Shown here piece after piece: positions 6,502 through 37,158 of a stretch of DNA of 64,000 nucleotides. The first letter of the stretch is position 1; each line of letters opens with the position of its first letter. The stretch spans positions 62,001-126,000 of the forward strand of contig QKPN01000001.1 of assembly GCA_003258405.1 (NCBI GenBank), given 5' to 3'. This DNA comes from Rhodobacteraceae bacterium DSL-40. GTDB lineage: Bacteria; Pseudomonadota; Alphaproteobacteria; Rhodobacterales; Rhodobacteraceae. Under the pieces are notes generated by a model. It ran no database searches and was not told where the DNA came from. It saw nothing but the letters and a program-made list of their open reading frames with translations. Position numbers and translations under genes: made by a program.

Positions 6502-6575
6502 TGGAGCGGGTGATGGGAATCGAACCCACGTATTCAGCTTGGAAGGCTGCTGCTCTACCATTGAGCTACACCCGC
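6502..6575 (-). tRNA. tRNA-Gly (anticodon TCC)
   Basis: A complete 74-nt cloverleaf with encoded CCA. The acceptor pairs GCGGGTG with CACCCGC, the D arm reads GCTCAATGGTAGAGC, the anticodon stem CAGC/GCTG encloses CTTCCAA (anticodon TCC), and the T arm is GTGGG TTCGATT CCCAT. It decodes GGA/GGG glycine codons. The 3' end faces the large repeat-protein gene. Confidence 0.97.
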
Positions 6576-31848: not shown

Positions 31849-32661
31849 TCATTCGGGGCGTGCCGCGCGCAGGAGGCGGACTGCTTCGGCCGCGCGCGGC
31901 GTGGCGCAGACCCAGAGCTTGTCGGAAACCTGCGCCCGGTCCCGGGGCAGGTGGGCAAGCGCCGGGTGGCTCAGGATCTCCTGGGCGCGGGCGGGGCTCC
32001 CGTAGTCCTGGCCGGTGATGAGGAGATCGGGATGGGAGAGCGCAAGCAGCTCGAGGGGGAAGCGCGAGAGGCCTTGGCGGCCGTCTTCGGCGGCGATGTT
32101 GCTGTAGCCCGCGGCCTCGAGAACGGCGTCAGCGAGGGTGCCGGTTCCGGAGGTGTAGCCGTTGGCGTAGAAGATCGCGGCGCGCGGGCGCTCTGCGGGC
32201 AGGGGGGCCGCAAGCTCGGCATCCATCTCGGTGATCAGGCGTTCGGCGCGCTCCGGCGTGCCGAGCAGATCCCCCATGCGGCGGACGGCGGTGCGGATAT
32301 CCCCGAAGCTTTCGCCGATCGGAAAGCTCTCGACGCGAATGCCGAGGCGACGGAGCATCGAGACGGTCTCTGCGGGGGAATACTCGCCGGCGAGCACGAG
32401 GTCGGGGGCGAGGAGATAGATCTCCTCGGCGCTGTTGTGATGCGTGGGATAGGCGCGGGCCTCCGCGGCCATGGCGGAGGAGACAGGGTCGGCGGCAATG
32501 TCGCTCACCGCCACAAGCTGGCCGGGGCGGGCGAGCAGCATCGCGAGCTGATCGGTGCAGAGGTTCATCGAGACGACCCGGGCGGCCGGCGCGGCGCGGA
32601 GCGGCGCTGCTGCCAGCACGAGGCAGGCAAGGAGCGTCGCGAACCGCGCCATGGCGTGCAT
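31849..32661 (-). CDS. btuF: Periplasmic cobalamin-binding protein (BtuF-like)
   Basis: A 270-residue type III solute-binding protein. A signal peptide (FATLLACLVLAAAPLRAAPA) is followed by ARVVSMNLCTDQLAMLLARPG, LLAPDLVLAGEYSP near residue 85 and GRQGLSRFPLELLALSHPDLL near 195, typical for TroA/BtuF-like cobalamin- or haem-binding proteins. It passes substrate from the receptor to BtuCD. Its ATG shares one base with the btuB stop (TGATG). Confidence 0.85.
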   Translation of the reverse strand: MHAMARFATLLACLVLAAAPLRAAPAARVVSMNLCTDQLAMLLARPGQLVAVSDIAADPVSSAMAAEARAYPTHHNSAEEIYLLAPDLVLAGEYSPAETVSMLRRLGIRVESFPIGESFGDIRTAVRRMGDLLGTPERAERLITEMDAELAAPLPAERPRAAIFYANGYTSGTGTLADAVLEAAGYSNIAAEDGRQGLSRFPLELLALSHPDLLITGQDYGSPARAQEILSHPALAHLPRDRAQVSDKLWVCATPRAAEAVRLLRAARPE

Positions 32662-34538
32662 CAGAAGATGCCCCTGACGCCGAGGAAGACCGCCTGGTCG
32701 GAGGTGCCGTAGCCGCGCACGGTCTGGTATTCGGCGTCGAGCAGGTTCTCGACCCGGACATAGAGCTCGGCCGCATCGCTGATCGCATAGCCCGCGCGAG
32801 CGTTCACGATGAGGAAATCGTTGTGGAAGTTCGCGGTTTCGGCCGGGCCGGTGCTGTCGGTGTAATCGCCCGAGTAGCGGGCTTCGAGCCCGTAGGAGAT
32901 GCGCTCCATCGCGGTGCCGTCGAGCGAGAGTGAGAGCGCGTGGCGCGGGATGCGGTCGCGATGCGCGCCATCGGCATCGGTGGCGTCGGTATAGGTATAG
33001 GCGCCCGAGAGGCTGAGGCTCGGGGCCAGTGCCCAGGAGGCGGAAAGCTCGACGCCGGAGCTCTTCGCCGTGCCGTCGCTCTGCACGTAGCGCCAGAGAT
33101 CGTAGTCGTACTCGATAAGGTCATCGATCTCGAGCCAGAAGAGCGTCGCCGTCGCCTGGCCCCGGCCGTCGGCGAAGGCCTGTTCGATGCCGATATCGGC
33201 GCTGCGGCTGGTTTCGGGATCGAGGTTCGAGTCGCCGGCGAACGGGTCATAGAGCTCGTAGAGCGAGGGCGGGCGGAAGCCGGTTCCGAGGGAGGCGCGC
33301 AGCACGGTGGCGCTCGGCAGCAGGTAGGCCGCGGTCAGGCGGCCGGTGGTGTAGCTGCCGAACTCGGAATGGCTGTCGTTGCGGAGGGCGGCATTGACCG
33401 TGAGCGCGTTGGTCGGGGCCCAGTCGGCCTGGGCGAAGATGCCGGTGATCGAGCTGTCTTCGCGCGCGCCGTCACTCGGGGTGCTGGTCTCCTGCGACCA
33501 GTCGAGGCCGTATTGCAGGCCGACCGCCGCCCCAGCGTCATAAGTGCCGAGATATTCGGCGCGAACGCGGTTGCCGTCGGTCTTGTAGGGGTAGTCGTCG
33601 TGGAACTCGCGCTCGACATCGTAGTAGCTGATGGCGAGATGGTGGGTGAGGAGGCTCGCGGGCGGGGCGATGTCCAGCCCGGCGCGGGCACCCCACTGGT
33701 CGGATTCGGACCAGTAATCCGCATCGGCATAGGCCGGAAAGCTCATGTCGTAATCCGCCTTCTCGTGCTGCTGGAATGCGGAGGCGAAGATGGTCACCGT
33801 GTCGGAGGTCGCGTAGCGGCCGGTGAGGGCGAGGCGGGTGGTCTCGTAGCCGTCGCGCTCTGGATTGCCATCGTCGGCCTCGACGGCGGAGAACCCGTCG
33901 GTACGGTAGTGGGTGAGGTTGAGGGCGAATTCACCGCGCTCGTCGCGGCCGGCGAGGCCGAGCTCGCCGCGGAAGGTGTCGAAGCTGCCCCCCTCGAGGG
34001 TGTAGCGGGTCTCGAGCCCGTCCTTCGTTGGCCCGGCCGTCGAGATGTCGACAACGCCGGCGACGGCCTGGCCGCCGTAGAGCGCGGACTGGCTGCCGCG
34101 GAGCACCTCCATGCGGCCGATGCCGTCGGTGCCGAGGCCGGTGAGCGACGAGGCGACCTGGGGACCGGTCGGATCGGAAATCTCGATCCCGTCGACATAG
34201 ACGCGCACATACTGCTGCGGTGCGCCGCGGATGGCAAAGCCCGAGGTGGCGCCCGCCGGACCTGCCTGGCTGGTGGTGACGCCGGGCATGGAGGTGAGCT
34301 GCTGGAGCACGAAAGGGCGATCGTCGGCGGCGATCTCCGCCTCATCGCGGACGGAGACTGCGGCGCCGGACCGGTCGGCGGGCGTGGCCGTGCGGTTGGG
34401 GGTGATGACGATTTCGTCGAGCTCGATCACATCGCCGTCGTCCGCGGCGGCAACCGGACCGGCGGCAAGCGCGGTGGTGGCAAACAGGGCCGCGATCGCG
34501 GTCCGGGCGGGTCTATGATGCGGTGCCGTCACTGGCAT
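32661..34538 (-). CDS. btuB: TonB-dependent cobalamin receptor (BtuB-like)
   Basis: A 625-residue outer-membrane receptor. A signal peptide (AALFATTALAAGPVAAADD) is followed by a TonB-box-like LDEIVITPNRTATP, a plug domain (VLQQLTSMPGVTTSQAGPAG, GIEISDPTGPQVASSL) and a 22-strand barrel rich in aromatic/glycine alternation, closing with AVFLGVRGIF, a proper barrel C-terminus ending in Phe. It imports vitamin B12 using TonB energy. The cobalamin riboswitch 150 bp upstream fixes the ligand. GAGGGAA precedes the ATG at 34538. First gene of btuB-btuF-btuC-btuD. Confidence 0.92.
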   Translation of the reverse strand: MPVTAPHHRPARTAIAALFATTALAAGPVAAADDGDVIELDEIVITPNRTATPADRSGAAVSVRDEAEIAADDRPFVLQQLTSMPGVTTSQAGPAGATSGFAIRGAPQQYVRVYVDGIEISDPTGPQVASSLTGLGTDGIGRMEVLRGSQSALYGGQAVAGVVDISTAGPTKDGLETRYTLEGGSFDTFRGELGLAGRDERGEFALNLTHYRTDGFSAVEADDGNPERDGYETTRLALTGRYATSDTVTIFASAFQQHEKADYDMSFPAYADADYWSESDQWGARAGLDIAPPASLLTHHLAISYYDVEREFHDDYPYKTDGNRVRAEYLGTYDAGAAVGLQYGLDWSQETSTPSDGAREDSSITGIFAQADWAPTNALTVNAALRNDSHSEFGSYTTGRLTAAYLLPSATVLRASLGTGFRPPSLYELYDPFAGDSNLDPETSRSADIGIEQAFADGRGQATATLFWLEIDDLIEYDYDLWRYVQSDGTAKSSGVELSASWALAPSLSLSGAYTYTDATDADGAHRDRIPRHALSLSLDGTAMERISYGLEARYSGDYTDSTGPAETANFHNDFLIVNARAGYAISDAAELYVRVENLLDAEYQTVRGYGTSDQAVFLGVRGIF

Positions 34539-34689
34539 GTGCGTTCCCTCTGGCCTCGGGGCCTTATCAGGGCGCCCGCTGGAATGTGCGTCCGCTGCCG
34601 TCGGGTATGACCCCTCCGCAACGGACCTTGATCCGGATCACCGCTGCGGGGAGCCGCACCTGCACGCGCCCCGCGTGGAGGTTGGGTGA

Positions 34690-34880
34690 CATATCCGGGC
34701 AGGTCTCCTGGCTTGCGGGTCGTGGCCCCCTGCGCCCGACCTTCCCGGATTGCTCCAGTGGCCGAATTCCTGGGCGCGGGACTCACCGCTTACAGTTGCG
34801 GGGGCAGCTGCGGCTCTGGGGCCTTTCCCCGCACCGCATTCCCTCTTGGCCCACCCCGGAGGGCAGGCACCCGAATTCGT
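34690..34880 (-). promoter_or_regulatory. Cobalamin riboswitch
   Basis: On the minus strand the leader of btuB carries the conserved B12-box region GCTGCCCCCGCAACTGTAAG (about 34790-34812 in plus coordinates), the upstream AAGAGGGAAT and GGGTGCCTGCCC elements near 34840-34870 and the closing GCCAGGAGACCTGCC at 34697-34711. These are diagnostic of the adenosylcobalamin riboswitch. When ligand binds, expression of btuBFCD is expected to be turned off. Ends are approximate. Confidence 0.95.
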
Positions 34881-35019
34881 GCCTTTTCCCGTGCGGCCGG
34901 TCTTCTGTCAAGATGGCACGCCTCCTGGAGCGGGGAGCGTTGCGTGAGGGCGGGAGCGCCAGCGTATGCCGAAATCCGGTGGACTTTCACGGGCCGCTTC
35001 GGTAGCGATCGCCGGGCGT

Positions 35020-35363
35020 GCGGACGTGGCGAAACTGGCAGACGCGGCAGACTTCAATTGGAGTGCCCGGGCGGGAAACCCCCGGTGCAGAACCGCTCAA
35101 AGTCGGGGAAAGCTAACGGGTTGGGAGGCTGGCGCGCCCGCTCTCCCGGCCCCATGCCAATCCCGAGCCAAGCTCTCCTTCGGGGGAGAAGGTGTAGAGA
35201 CTGGACGGGCGGTGCCTAAGGCTGGAAAGGAGGCTTTCCGGCTATGGTGAAGGGACAGTCCAGACCACGAACGCCCCGGAGAGGGGCGGCTTCGAAAGTC
35301 GAAGTGGTACGAAAATCTGCTTCCCGTAAGGGAGTACGGGTTCGAGCCCCGTCGTCCGCACCA
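35020..35363 (+). tRNA. tRNA-Leu (anticodon TAA), interrupted by a group I intron
   Basis: Two exons, 35020-35054 and 35312-35363, join to an 87-nt class II tRNA with encoded CCA. The acceptor pairs GCGGACG/CGTCCGC, the anticodon stem pairs GCAGA/TCTGC and the loop becomes CTTAAAA, giving anticodon TAA at the boundary T|AA. The long variable arm (TTCCCGTAAGGGAG) and T arm (ACGGG TTCGAGC CCCGT) are typical for leucine tRNAs. It decodes UUA (and UUG by wobble). The interruption lies after position 34, the same site as in cyanobacterial and plastid tRNA-Leu(UAA). Confidence 0.93.
35055..35311 (+). ncRNA. Group I intron (IC3-like) in tRNA-Leu(UAA)
   Basis: A 257-nt intron without an open reading frame. 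P1: exon ACTT (35051-35054) pairs with intron GAGT (35061-35064), giving the obligatory U-G wobble at the 5' splice site. The 3' end is the conserved terminal G (35311). Conserved core segments are GCCAATCCCGAGCCAAGC (35156-35173) and GTGTAGAGACTGGACGG (35192-35208), with P7 formed by GACTG (35199-35203) and CAGTC (35256-35260), followed by CAGACCACGAACG. A stem capped by TTCG (35173-35188) and a 9-bp hairpin near 35221-35242 complete typical peripheral helices. Expected to self-splice using guanosine. Confidence 0.92.
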
Positions 35364-35367
35364 GGAC

Positions 35368-35575: not shown

Positions 35576-36739
35576 TTACCAGGTGTGGGTCGGCTCGATC
35601 GACGGAATGTCGATTTCGCACTTGAACTGAAGCAGGAAGCCGAGGCCCTGGGCAACGGCGGAATTCAGTTCGGTCGGCGTCAGCACGCTGTCGATATACT
35701 TGGTCTCGACGGCATAGTCGTAGGCCGTGCCGTCTTCGAAGCGCGGGTTGTACTTGTCGCGGCAGACCGAGGCCTGAAGGCCGAGCACTTCGGCTTCCGA
35801 CTGCACGACTTCGGCGAGCTCGTTGATGCTGTACTTGCCGGGGCAGTTGTTGACGATGCGGTGCTGGCCCGCGGCGCCCGGATTATAGGCCAGGCTCTTC
35901 AGGATCTCGATGCAGTCCTCGAGCACCATGATGCCGGAGGTCTGCGTGCCGGAACCGTAAACGGTCATCGGCACCCCGGCGATCGCCTGGGTCACGAAGC
36001 GGTTCACCACCGTCCCGAAGATCTCGTCATAGTCGAAGCGGGTGCACAGGCGGTCGTCCTGAAGCGTCCGTTCGGTGGCTGCGCCGAAGACGGTCGACTG
36101 CATCACGTCGGAGATCTTGAGGTTCCACTTGCGGCAGGCGAGGCCCGCGAAGTTGCCGTCGTTGATCTTGGTGATGTGGTAGAAATCGTCGCTCGCGCGC
36201 GGGAAGGGCACCGGAACGGCGGATTCCTTGCCGTTGAGCGAGATCTTGGCGTTGCCTTCCGGGATATCGAGGCCCGGTTTGGCGTAGGCGCCGAAGCTGC
36301 CGAGCTTCACGAGATGGCAATCCGGAGCGTGCTCCTTCATGCCCCAGATCACGTTGAGGAAGCCGGCTTCGTTGTTGGTGATCGTTTCCACCGCTTCCTT
36401 GACGCCGAGCATCGAATAGGGCGCGGTGCGCTGATGCGCGAGGTGATAAACAACCTCGGGTTTGAACTCGGCAAAGAGCGCCATCACCTGATCGGAATTC
36501 GCACAATCGAGTTCGCGGAAGCTCAGGTTGGTCTGACCGGTGACCTCGCGGAAGGCGGCGAGACGCTCTTCCATGCTGCAGATCGGGGAAAGCGACTTCC
36601 CGCCGACCTTAGCCGAATTACGCCGGGTCAGGAAATTGTCGACTATCAAAATTTCCTTGTTGGGAAAGGAGTTTGCCAACTCCAATGACAGTGGCCAGCC
36701 GATATAGCCGTCACCGCCAAAAACAATGATATCCCCCAT
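35576..36739 (-). CDS. SqdB-like (UDP-sulfoquinovose synthase-like) epimerase/dehydratase
   Basis: A 387-residue extended short-chain dehydrogenase. The NAD-binding GGDGYIGWPLSLELAN lies at residues 8-23, IVDNFLTRR near 33, AHQRTAPYSMLGVKEAVETI near 100, CHLVKLGSFGAY near 145, and the catalytic Tyr/Lys in FYHITKINDGNF near 186-191. The GDGYIGWPLSLELA start, 'RTAPYSM' and HLVKLG motifs are those of UDP-sulfoquinovose synthase (SQD1/SqdB), but the rest is diverged and no sqdC, sqdD or sqdX gene is adjacent. It may make a sulfonated or other modified UDP-sugar for an exopolysaccharide. The upstream region is AT-rich. Confidence 0.75.
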   Translation of the reverse strand: MGDIIVFGGDGYIGWPLSLELANSFPNKEILIVDNFLTRRNSAKVGGKSLSPICSMEERLAAFREVTGQTNLSFRELDCANSDQVMALFAEFKPEVVYHLAHQRTAPYSMLGVKEAVETITNNEAGFLNVIWGMKEHAPDCHLVKLGSFGAYAKPGLDIPEGNAKISLNGKESAVPVPFPRASDDFYHITKINDGNFAGLACRKWNLKISDVMQSTVFGAATERTLQDDRLCTRFDYDEIFGTVVNRFVTQAIAGVPMTVYGSGTQTSGIMVLEDCIEILKSLAYNPGAAGQHRIVNNCPGKYSINELAEVVQSEAEVLGLQASVCRDKYNPRFEDGTAYDYAVETKYIDSVLTPTELNSAVAQGLGFLLQFKCEIDIPSIEPTHTW

Positions 36740-37158
36740 CTATCACACCTTTACTCGAGAATAGACTATAACAAATTCTTTACACTAAAAGTTTCCGAAT
36801 TCAATGATGCAACGCACCTATAGTTAAATTTTTGCGCTTCGAAGTTTTGCACTCATGGGTTGGGAACCTCCACCCTTGCGTGCAAGCTGCTTGCTGCTCG
36901 GCGAGCATCCCGACAACATCTATTCCCTGGAGTGAGTATTCCGCGCCCTCGGAATCATCTTAATAGCGTGGGGCGATTATCTGCGCAAGTCGCTTGGTTT
37001 CGTAGGGTTGACGGTATGATTCGACCCTGAATCGTCCGGTCTTCCCGCCCGCGGCGGCGGCGCCCGAGTGAGGAATATCTCGCTCCGGCCCCGTGGGGCT
37101 TGCCAATGCGCACGAGCGTCGGGAGATTGGCGGCAGGATGGTTCCGGAGGTATGCTGC
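36740..37158. other. 419-bp intergenic region, AT-rich half next to sqdB-like gene
   Basis: A divergent promoter region between the SqdB-like gene and the CRTAC1-type gene. The first 110 bp is strikingly AT-rich for this genome and on the minus strand contains TATAGT-like elements near 36765, consistent with a promoter for the epimerase. Further right, GATTC-N6-GAATC (37018-37033) is a short inverted repeat. No gene or RNA is supported. Confidence 0.5.

Follow-up and report, generated by a model that had tools for sequence, protein, structure and literature searches.

The window, by which we mean the whole stretch of 64,000 nucleotides from Rhodobacteraceae bacterium DSL-40 that was analyzed, very probably holds a functional tRNA-Leu(UAA) gene that is split after U34 by a group I intron capable of removing itself. 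Exon and junction analysis placed the 5' exon, which ends in U34, at 35020..35054 of the forward strand and the 3' exon, which runs from A35 to the encoded CCA, at 35312..35363; the 257-nt intron between them (35055..35311, last base G) was delineated on basis of Rfam RF00028, covariation and a core model. These are exactly the exon and insert coordinates of a first-pass annotation of the same sequence. The joined exons form an 87-nt class II tRNA with encoded CCA, in which the anticodon loop CUU|AAAA (anticodon UAA) is carried by a five-pair stem, and this fold bears out the identity that had been assigned to the gene. Cyanobacterial and plastid tRNA-Leu(UAA) carry group I introns after U34, and the insertion point in the tRNA-Leu(UAA) of the window is, as had been proposed, the same.

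The insert displays the features of a group I intron. At the 5' splice site P1 (ACUU/GAGU; 35051-35054 paired with 35061-35064) contains the pair U54•G61, i.e. positions 35054 and 35061 of the window, the intron terminates in the G at 35311, and a P3/P7 pseudoknot together with a P4-P6 domain is backed by covariation in sets of 7 and of 101 sequences. The U-G pair, the terminal G, the core segments and the P7 strands GACTG/CAGTC had all been recognized correctly in the first-pass annotation. On the same strand P1 is followed by P2 (35065-35066 with 35087-35088 and 35067-35071 with 35081-35085), P3 (35093-35098 with 35207-35212), P4 (35103-35108 with 35161-35166), P5 (35112-35113 with 35156-35157), P6 (35167-35169 with 35191-35193, enclosing P6a), P7 (35197 and 35199-35203 with 35256-35261), P8 (35220-35229 with 35234-35243), P9 (35264-35268 with 35304-35308) and P9a (35272-35277 with 35283-35288). 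The P5 loop extension (35114..35155) exceeds the length found in the six relatives that were aligned first. P7 contains both the bulged A35198 and the G-C pair 35199/35260, which we take to be the guanosine-binding pair. In size and anticodon-loop site, the two properties compared, the intron fits subgroup IC3.

The case for the intron is carried by covariation, more than by the fold of the whole region, which is moderately better than that of shuffled sequences (z -3.26). In the first alignment, of the window intron with six relatives (four from Leu(UAA), one from Arg(CCU) and one from Lys(UUU)), the P1-P9 structure pairs in 91.7% of the cells, and 27 of the 60 pairs have changed on both sides, versus 10.9 in shuffles and 7-9 with slid partners. 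By this comparison, the core of the window intron pairs more than by chance, and a chance fold of the insert was rejected on the excess of double-sided changes over the shuffles. P9b pairs more poorly in the window than in the relatives. A second alignment was based on a core model, R1, that was built without the P7 pairs and that aligned 101 matches from 100 sources, the window included; here P7 pairs in 99.7% of the cells. Since the exact motif GAAGGTGYAGAGACTNGACGGG, by which 73 of the 100 sources (74 of the 101 matches) had been chosen, fixes the 5' strand of P7 except for its last position, only the last P7 pair constitutes a free test. This pair is formed in 101/101 matches, as A-U in 54, G-C in 23, C-G in 12 and U-A in 12, and its covariation is a good test of the core. 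Three of the six P7 pairs are invariant across the 101 matches, and the G-C pair at the presumed guanosine site is constant in 101/101, with its 5' base fixed by the motif in 74 of them.

At default settings the annotation tools that were tried miss the gene, as the first-pass annotation had predicted for standard tRNA annotation. Run without introns, ARAGORN reports only a tRNA-Gly at 6502-6575 in the window; run with introns, it finds the split gene with the junction off by one base and the label Phe(GAA). In Rfam, at the gathering cut-off, a group I match is absent from the window. The covariance hit that was anticipated does exist, as RF00028 matches in a 601-base scan with an E-value of 3.9e-5, but its 27.9 bits stay under the curated cut-off of 50 bits. 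When 20 loci carrying a core match were scored with RF00028, 2 attained 50 bits, 12 fell short of it and 6 went unmatched at E 0.05, and we take the scores under the cut-off as a limit of the Rfam model. The low score, the weak P9b and the long, unusual P5 extension could also be read as signs of a decayed intron or a pseudogene that yields no tRNA. We consider this highly improbable, because the core helices and the tRNA stems pair and the search of the genome yielded no further UAA gene, and the pseudogene was rejected on these grounds.

The genome (4.37 Mb in 190 contigs, listed as 100% complete) contains a single match to the window locus. Its 42 tRNA matches comprise Leu genes with the anticodons CAA, TAG, CAG and GAG; they include neither a second tRNA-Leu(UAA) nor a tRNA-Ile(GAU) or a tRNA-Ala(UGC). 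Given the 190 contigs and the lack of Ile(GAU) and Ala(UGC) among the 42, the assembly may miss some tRNA genes; that the genome is without a second UAA gene is likely. By the decoding rules, UUA then depends on the split tRNA-Leu(UAA), which is the sole UUA reader found, in line with what the first-pass annotation had expected.

We infer that the precursor would fold into the P3-P9 core and bind a free guanosine in P7, and that this guanosine would attack after U34, at the U-G pair of P1. The released 5' exon would then attack after the terminal G at 35311, by which the exons would be joined to the mature tRNA-Leu(UAA). Splicing would thereby be required for the reading of UUA. The alphaproteobacterial tRNA-Arg(CCU) intron (Agrobacterium, Bartonella BbgpI) has its core plan in common with the window intron, but sits after U36 instead of U34, so that its P1 is another one, and occupies another host tRNA. 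The betaproteobacterial tRNA-Ile(CAU) intron, of which Azoarcus is a carrier, is by description also a tRNA group I intron that tRNAscan-SE misses, although in another host tRNA. Ile2 introns are reported for Acidovorax and Burkholderia, and the account of tRNAscan-SE 2.0 mentions missed group I introns in fMet and Ile2 (PMC8450103). The intron BbgpI is reported to self-splice in vitro and to splice in vivo, and by its description it conceals its tRNA from a tRNA finder as the window intron does (PMC7717549).

Two observations concern the surroundings of the gene. A cobalamin riboswitch (RF00174, 113 bits) is located on the reverse strand at 34681-34889, upstream of genes for a TonB-dependent receptor (32661-34538) and a periplasmic binding protein. 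In addition, the GC content drops to 0.56 at 36000-36999, versus 0.62-0.70 in most of the surroundings. The latter stretch lies in and just beyond an epimerase gene (35576-36739), beside the 3' end of the tRNA, and is perhaps acquired DNA.

The window intron belongs to a patchy family that extends across Proteobacteria and is hosted by several tRNA genes. The R1 core is present in 26 of 295 genomes of the bacterial family, in 49 of 385 genomes of the class, where filters may drop weak matches, and in 2 of 11 genomes of the genus, the window's own genome being counted each time; in genus mate G006, tRNA-Leu(UAA) is intact and carries no intron. A tally by hand assigns the family sample's 27 matches to Leu(UAA) (19), Arg(CCU) (3), Thr(GGU) (2), Arg(UCU) (1) and Thr(UGU) (1), with one match left without a host; further hosts in the class sample are Lys(UUU), Lys(CUU), Leu(CAA) and Thr(CGU). 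The intron family occupies nine isoacceptors, as judged from hand-checked junctions. Host labels given by ARAGORN or by script were wrong for some loci (His, Ser, Phe etc.) and were reassigned from the junctions, in some cases by hand. In a collection of named records at least 118 match, and those listed comprise 77 introns in Leu(UAA) and one more that lacks the 5' exon, 22 in Arg(CCU), 3 in Lys(UUU), 2 in Thr(GGU), 1 in Thr(UGU) and 12 without assignment. By their titles, which may be wrong for metagenome bins, these records belong to Alphaproteobacteria (76), Cyanobacteria (14), Acidobacteria (6), Gammaproteobacteria (6), Betaproteobacteria (4), Actinomycetes (2), Bacteroidota (2) and others or unplaced (8). 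The notion that alphaproteobacterial introns reside in tRNA-Arg(CCU) only cannot be upheld: the commonest host is Leu(UAA), with 19 of the 27 family matches and 47 of the 76 alphaproteobacterial records among the matches listed. By this distribution, tRNA group I introns in Alphaproteobacteria are common yet easily overlooked.

Some loci have an irregular composition. In Bradyrhizobium sp. LMTR 3, one locus (L257) consists of the intron and the 3' exon with the 5' exon gone, and another (L187) is a full copy; locus L149 combines a full copy with a further core that has no 3' exon. These arrangements look like leftovers of integration or rearrangement. Locus L142 (genome G539) contains two weak core matches in tandem, about 260 bases apart, where ARAGORN reads one tRNA-Leu(UAA) with a 693-base insert; possibly these are twin or nested introns. 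In genus mate G005, 29 bases (G005:C16:92772-92800, in L281) resemble the 5' end of a tRNA-Leu, and no tRNA is called there.

The closest kin of the window intron appear, on present data, to be proteobacterial rather than cyanobacterial. Over the columns with an occupancy of at least 60% in 76 rows, its mean identity is 77.4% to alphaproteobacterial Leu introns (n=26; best 84.8%, Rhodovulum steppense), 69.2% to alphaproteobacterial Arg(CCU) introns (n=10), 68.5% to alphaproteobacterial Thr(GGU) introns (n=4) and 55.8% to cyanobacterial Leu introns (n=10; best 59.2%), the lowest value among 11 groups. In the core tree, built on 100 rows and 135 columns with a bootstrap that had not settled and with the second core of L149 omitted, the window shares a starred set of 9 rows with 7 Arg(CCU) introns and another Leu intron. 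A second tree retained 76 of the 100 rows, after 17 without usable automatic junction and 7 with long branches or very long introns had been dropped. In both trees the window falls in starred sets of non-cyanobacterial introns, and the cyanobacterial introns form a separate starred clade (100/98 in the 100-row tree, 100/100 in the 76-row tree). The phylogeny that the first-pass annotation had called for puts the window with alphaproteobacterial Arg and Leu introns, but AU tests spare a clade of the window and the cyanobacteria (p 0.48 and 0.35 in two tests).

The cyanobacterial introns also contain the core motif that served as search pattern. The AU result and the identical tRNA and position would agree with the gain of a cyanobacterial (or plastid) tRNA-Leu(UAA) intron by horizontal transfer. 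Indeed, locus L240, from Tatlockia sp. and thus gammaproteobacterial by title, groups with the cyanobacterial introns in the core tree, which indicates that such transfer, or a mixed bin, does occur. For the window intron we nevertheless hold this origin to be very improbable, as the cyanobacterial introns, with 56% mean identity, are the least similar of all groups and the window lies inside the starred non-cyanobacterial sets. A cyanobacterial donor was rejected as the leading reading on account of this identity and the separate clade. Of the earlier proposal, horizontal transfer or ancient inheritance at the cyanobacterial site, the shared site stands, and the step from this site to a cyanobacterial source is not borne out as stated.

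A single ancient Leu(UAA) intron that predates the divergence of Proteobacteria and Cyanobacteria, was passed on vertically and was lost many times seems unlikely as well. The commonness of Leu(UAA) as a host (77 of 118 among the matches listed) would fit such a history, and a clade that unites all Leu introns is not rejected by AU tests (p 0.20 and 0.15 in two tests). However, the intron is patchy inside the genus (2 of 11 genomes), where a genus mate has an intronless Leu(UAA), and the core tree calls for 12 changes to account for the Leu introns. Moreover, a clade of alphaproteobacterial and cyanobacterial Leu introns, a group that was named post hoc and excludes other Leu introns, is rejected (p 0.001). 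Host labels as a whole need 20 changes on the core tree, against a minimum of 9 ('unknown', 3 rows, being counted as a label), from which it follows that the intron entered several tRNA genes repeatedly or moved between them.

At the Leu site, the functional self-splicing intron that we favour seems often to travel with its tRNA gene. The exons of the window are 85-93% identical to those of 20 distinct intron-bearing Leu(UAA) genes, among them genes of Caulobacterales (93%), Acetobacterales (91%), Hyphomicrobiales and Sphingomonadales, versus a mean of 73% and a best of 85% for 32 intronless Leu(UAA) genes of its own family and 79% for an intronless genus mate; the comparison covers fetched loci, mostly obtained by similarity searches and not at random. 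Joint travel of gene and intron is suggested by these exons and is put as a suggestion because three intronless Leu(UAA) genes of the class have exons 86-90% identical to those of the window, because the genus's other intron-bearing gene (G004) reaches only 77% and because a tree of the 87 exon columns, which resolves little, requires the intron state to change 18 times. Of 6 window proteins, none was matched in the regions of 6 relatives, 4 of which have a tRNA-Leu(UAA). As no neighbour gene of the window was found near the tRNA of these relatives, gain or loss at one locus cannot be read from them.

The intron family is also found on mobile carriers. The core motif is present in at least 120 stretches of viral contigs (IMG/VR, L365-L484), of which 64 look like Leu(UAA), 4 like Lys(UUU), 2 like both and 50 like neither under a loose junction rule. 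Of the three contigs in which proteins were checked, L372 and L404 have phage tail genes in the fetched stretch, and in L441 only a metallophosphoesterase was found; some viral contigs may hold host DNA. Among phage isolate records 3 entries match weakly, two of which are Gordonia phage Daredevil. In this phage the core match (L488:2501-2664) lies close to the integrase, with no tRNA annotated. Viral contig L442, which equals the genome of this phage in length, reads as tRNA-Lys(UUU).

A BLAST search with 35020-35366 against plasmids matched 1283 of 72,556 records, 1260 of them over at least 80% of the query, and with the copy of pCTX-M3 as query 1280 of the 72,556 matched, 1273 at 99% or more. 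The near-identity of these 1273 records points to one recent spread. The plasmid copy occurs chiefly in Escherichia (493), Klebsiella (365) and Salmonella (117). Each of three plasmid regions inspected has the intron-bearing tRNA close to aac(3)-IId, and 1157 plasmid records cover 80% or more of a 1250-nt stretch, a level that is out of reach unless parts of both the tRNA and aac(3)-IId are present. The figure of 1230 records with 80% of a 1808-nt stretch was dropped as a link between the two, as that stretch does not require presence of the tRNA. The alphaproteobacterial-type intron-bearing tRNA-Leu(UAA) near aac(3)-IId is located at L485:6001-6299 (NC_004464.2), and further examples are L486, L487 and L489. 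The silence of the plasmid tables on the tRNA carries no meaning, since RNA genes are not listed in them; on plasmid L487 a hypothetical protein is annotated over the tRNA. In complete E. coli genomes the copy is present in 635 of 5426 (81 places on chromosomes, 589 on plasmids). RefSeq records of E. coli do list RNA genes, and of the 658 matching records all 60 that were listed lack a feature at the position of the match.

Among the loci compared, Enterovirga aerilata comes closest to the plasmid copy, with 96.3% of the aligned letters identical (gaps ignored, only loci with an automatic junction compared), versus 90.5% for the window. From this kinship it follows that a tRNA gene of alphaproteobacterial type reached gammaproteobacterial plasmids. 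Homologues of 4 neighbouring plasmid proteins were absent from the other loci compared, except for the E. coli copy L489. Tentatively, and at slightly less than an even chance, we propose that the intron-bearing tRNA-Leu(UAA) is a travelling unit, carried by phages and plasmids across orders and phyla, that its intron has jumped among at least nine isoacceptors, and that the copy beside aac(3)-IId on more than 1100 plasmids points to an alphaproteobacterial chromosome as the probable origin of that segment.

Movement of such introns is an old idea, considering that one older title reportedly claims 'horizontal transmission and transposition' for tRNA-Arg(CCU) introns of alpha-purple bacteria and that another is said to claim 'recombination of the entire tRNA locus' for the tRNA-Leu(UAA) intron. 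Our literature search, which covered few subscription papers, found no title or abstract on proteobacterial group I introns in Leu(UAA), Lys or Thr, on the plasmid copy or on phage tRNA introns, and this silence is weak evidence of novelty. According to reviews, tRNA group I introns reside in cyanobacteria and in a few alpha- and betaproteobacteria (PMC4033280, PMC11408192), and the word 'proteobacteria' is absent from the main text of a 2025 paper on a group I database (PMC11835236). A review of 2014 places all phage introns then known in protein genes and sees little evidence of intron movement between bacterial species (PMC3984707).

The element in the window is an ordinary kind of ribozyme that has been little noticed in its lineage, and the mobile carriers, i.e. 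plasmids and viral contigs, are the more surprising part. The tRNA-Leu copies on viral contigs and on more than 1000 plasmids bear on what that review states on phage introns and on movement between species (PMC3984707), and the plasmid copy may mark where the aac(3)-IId segment came from. In its own lineage, the split gene fills an apparent gap in the tRNA set.
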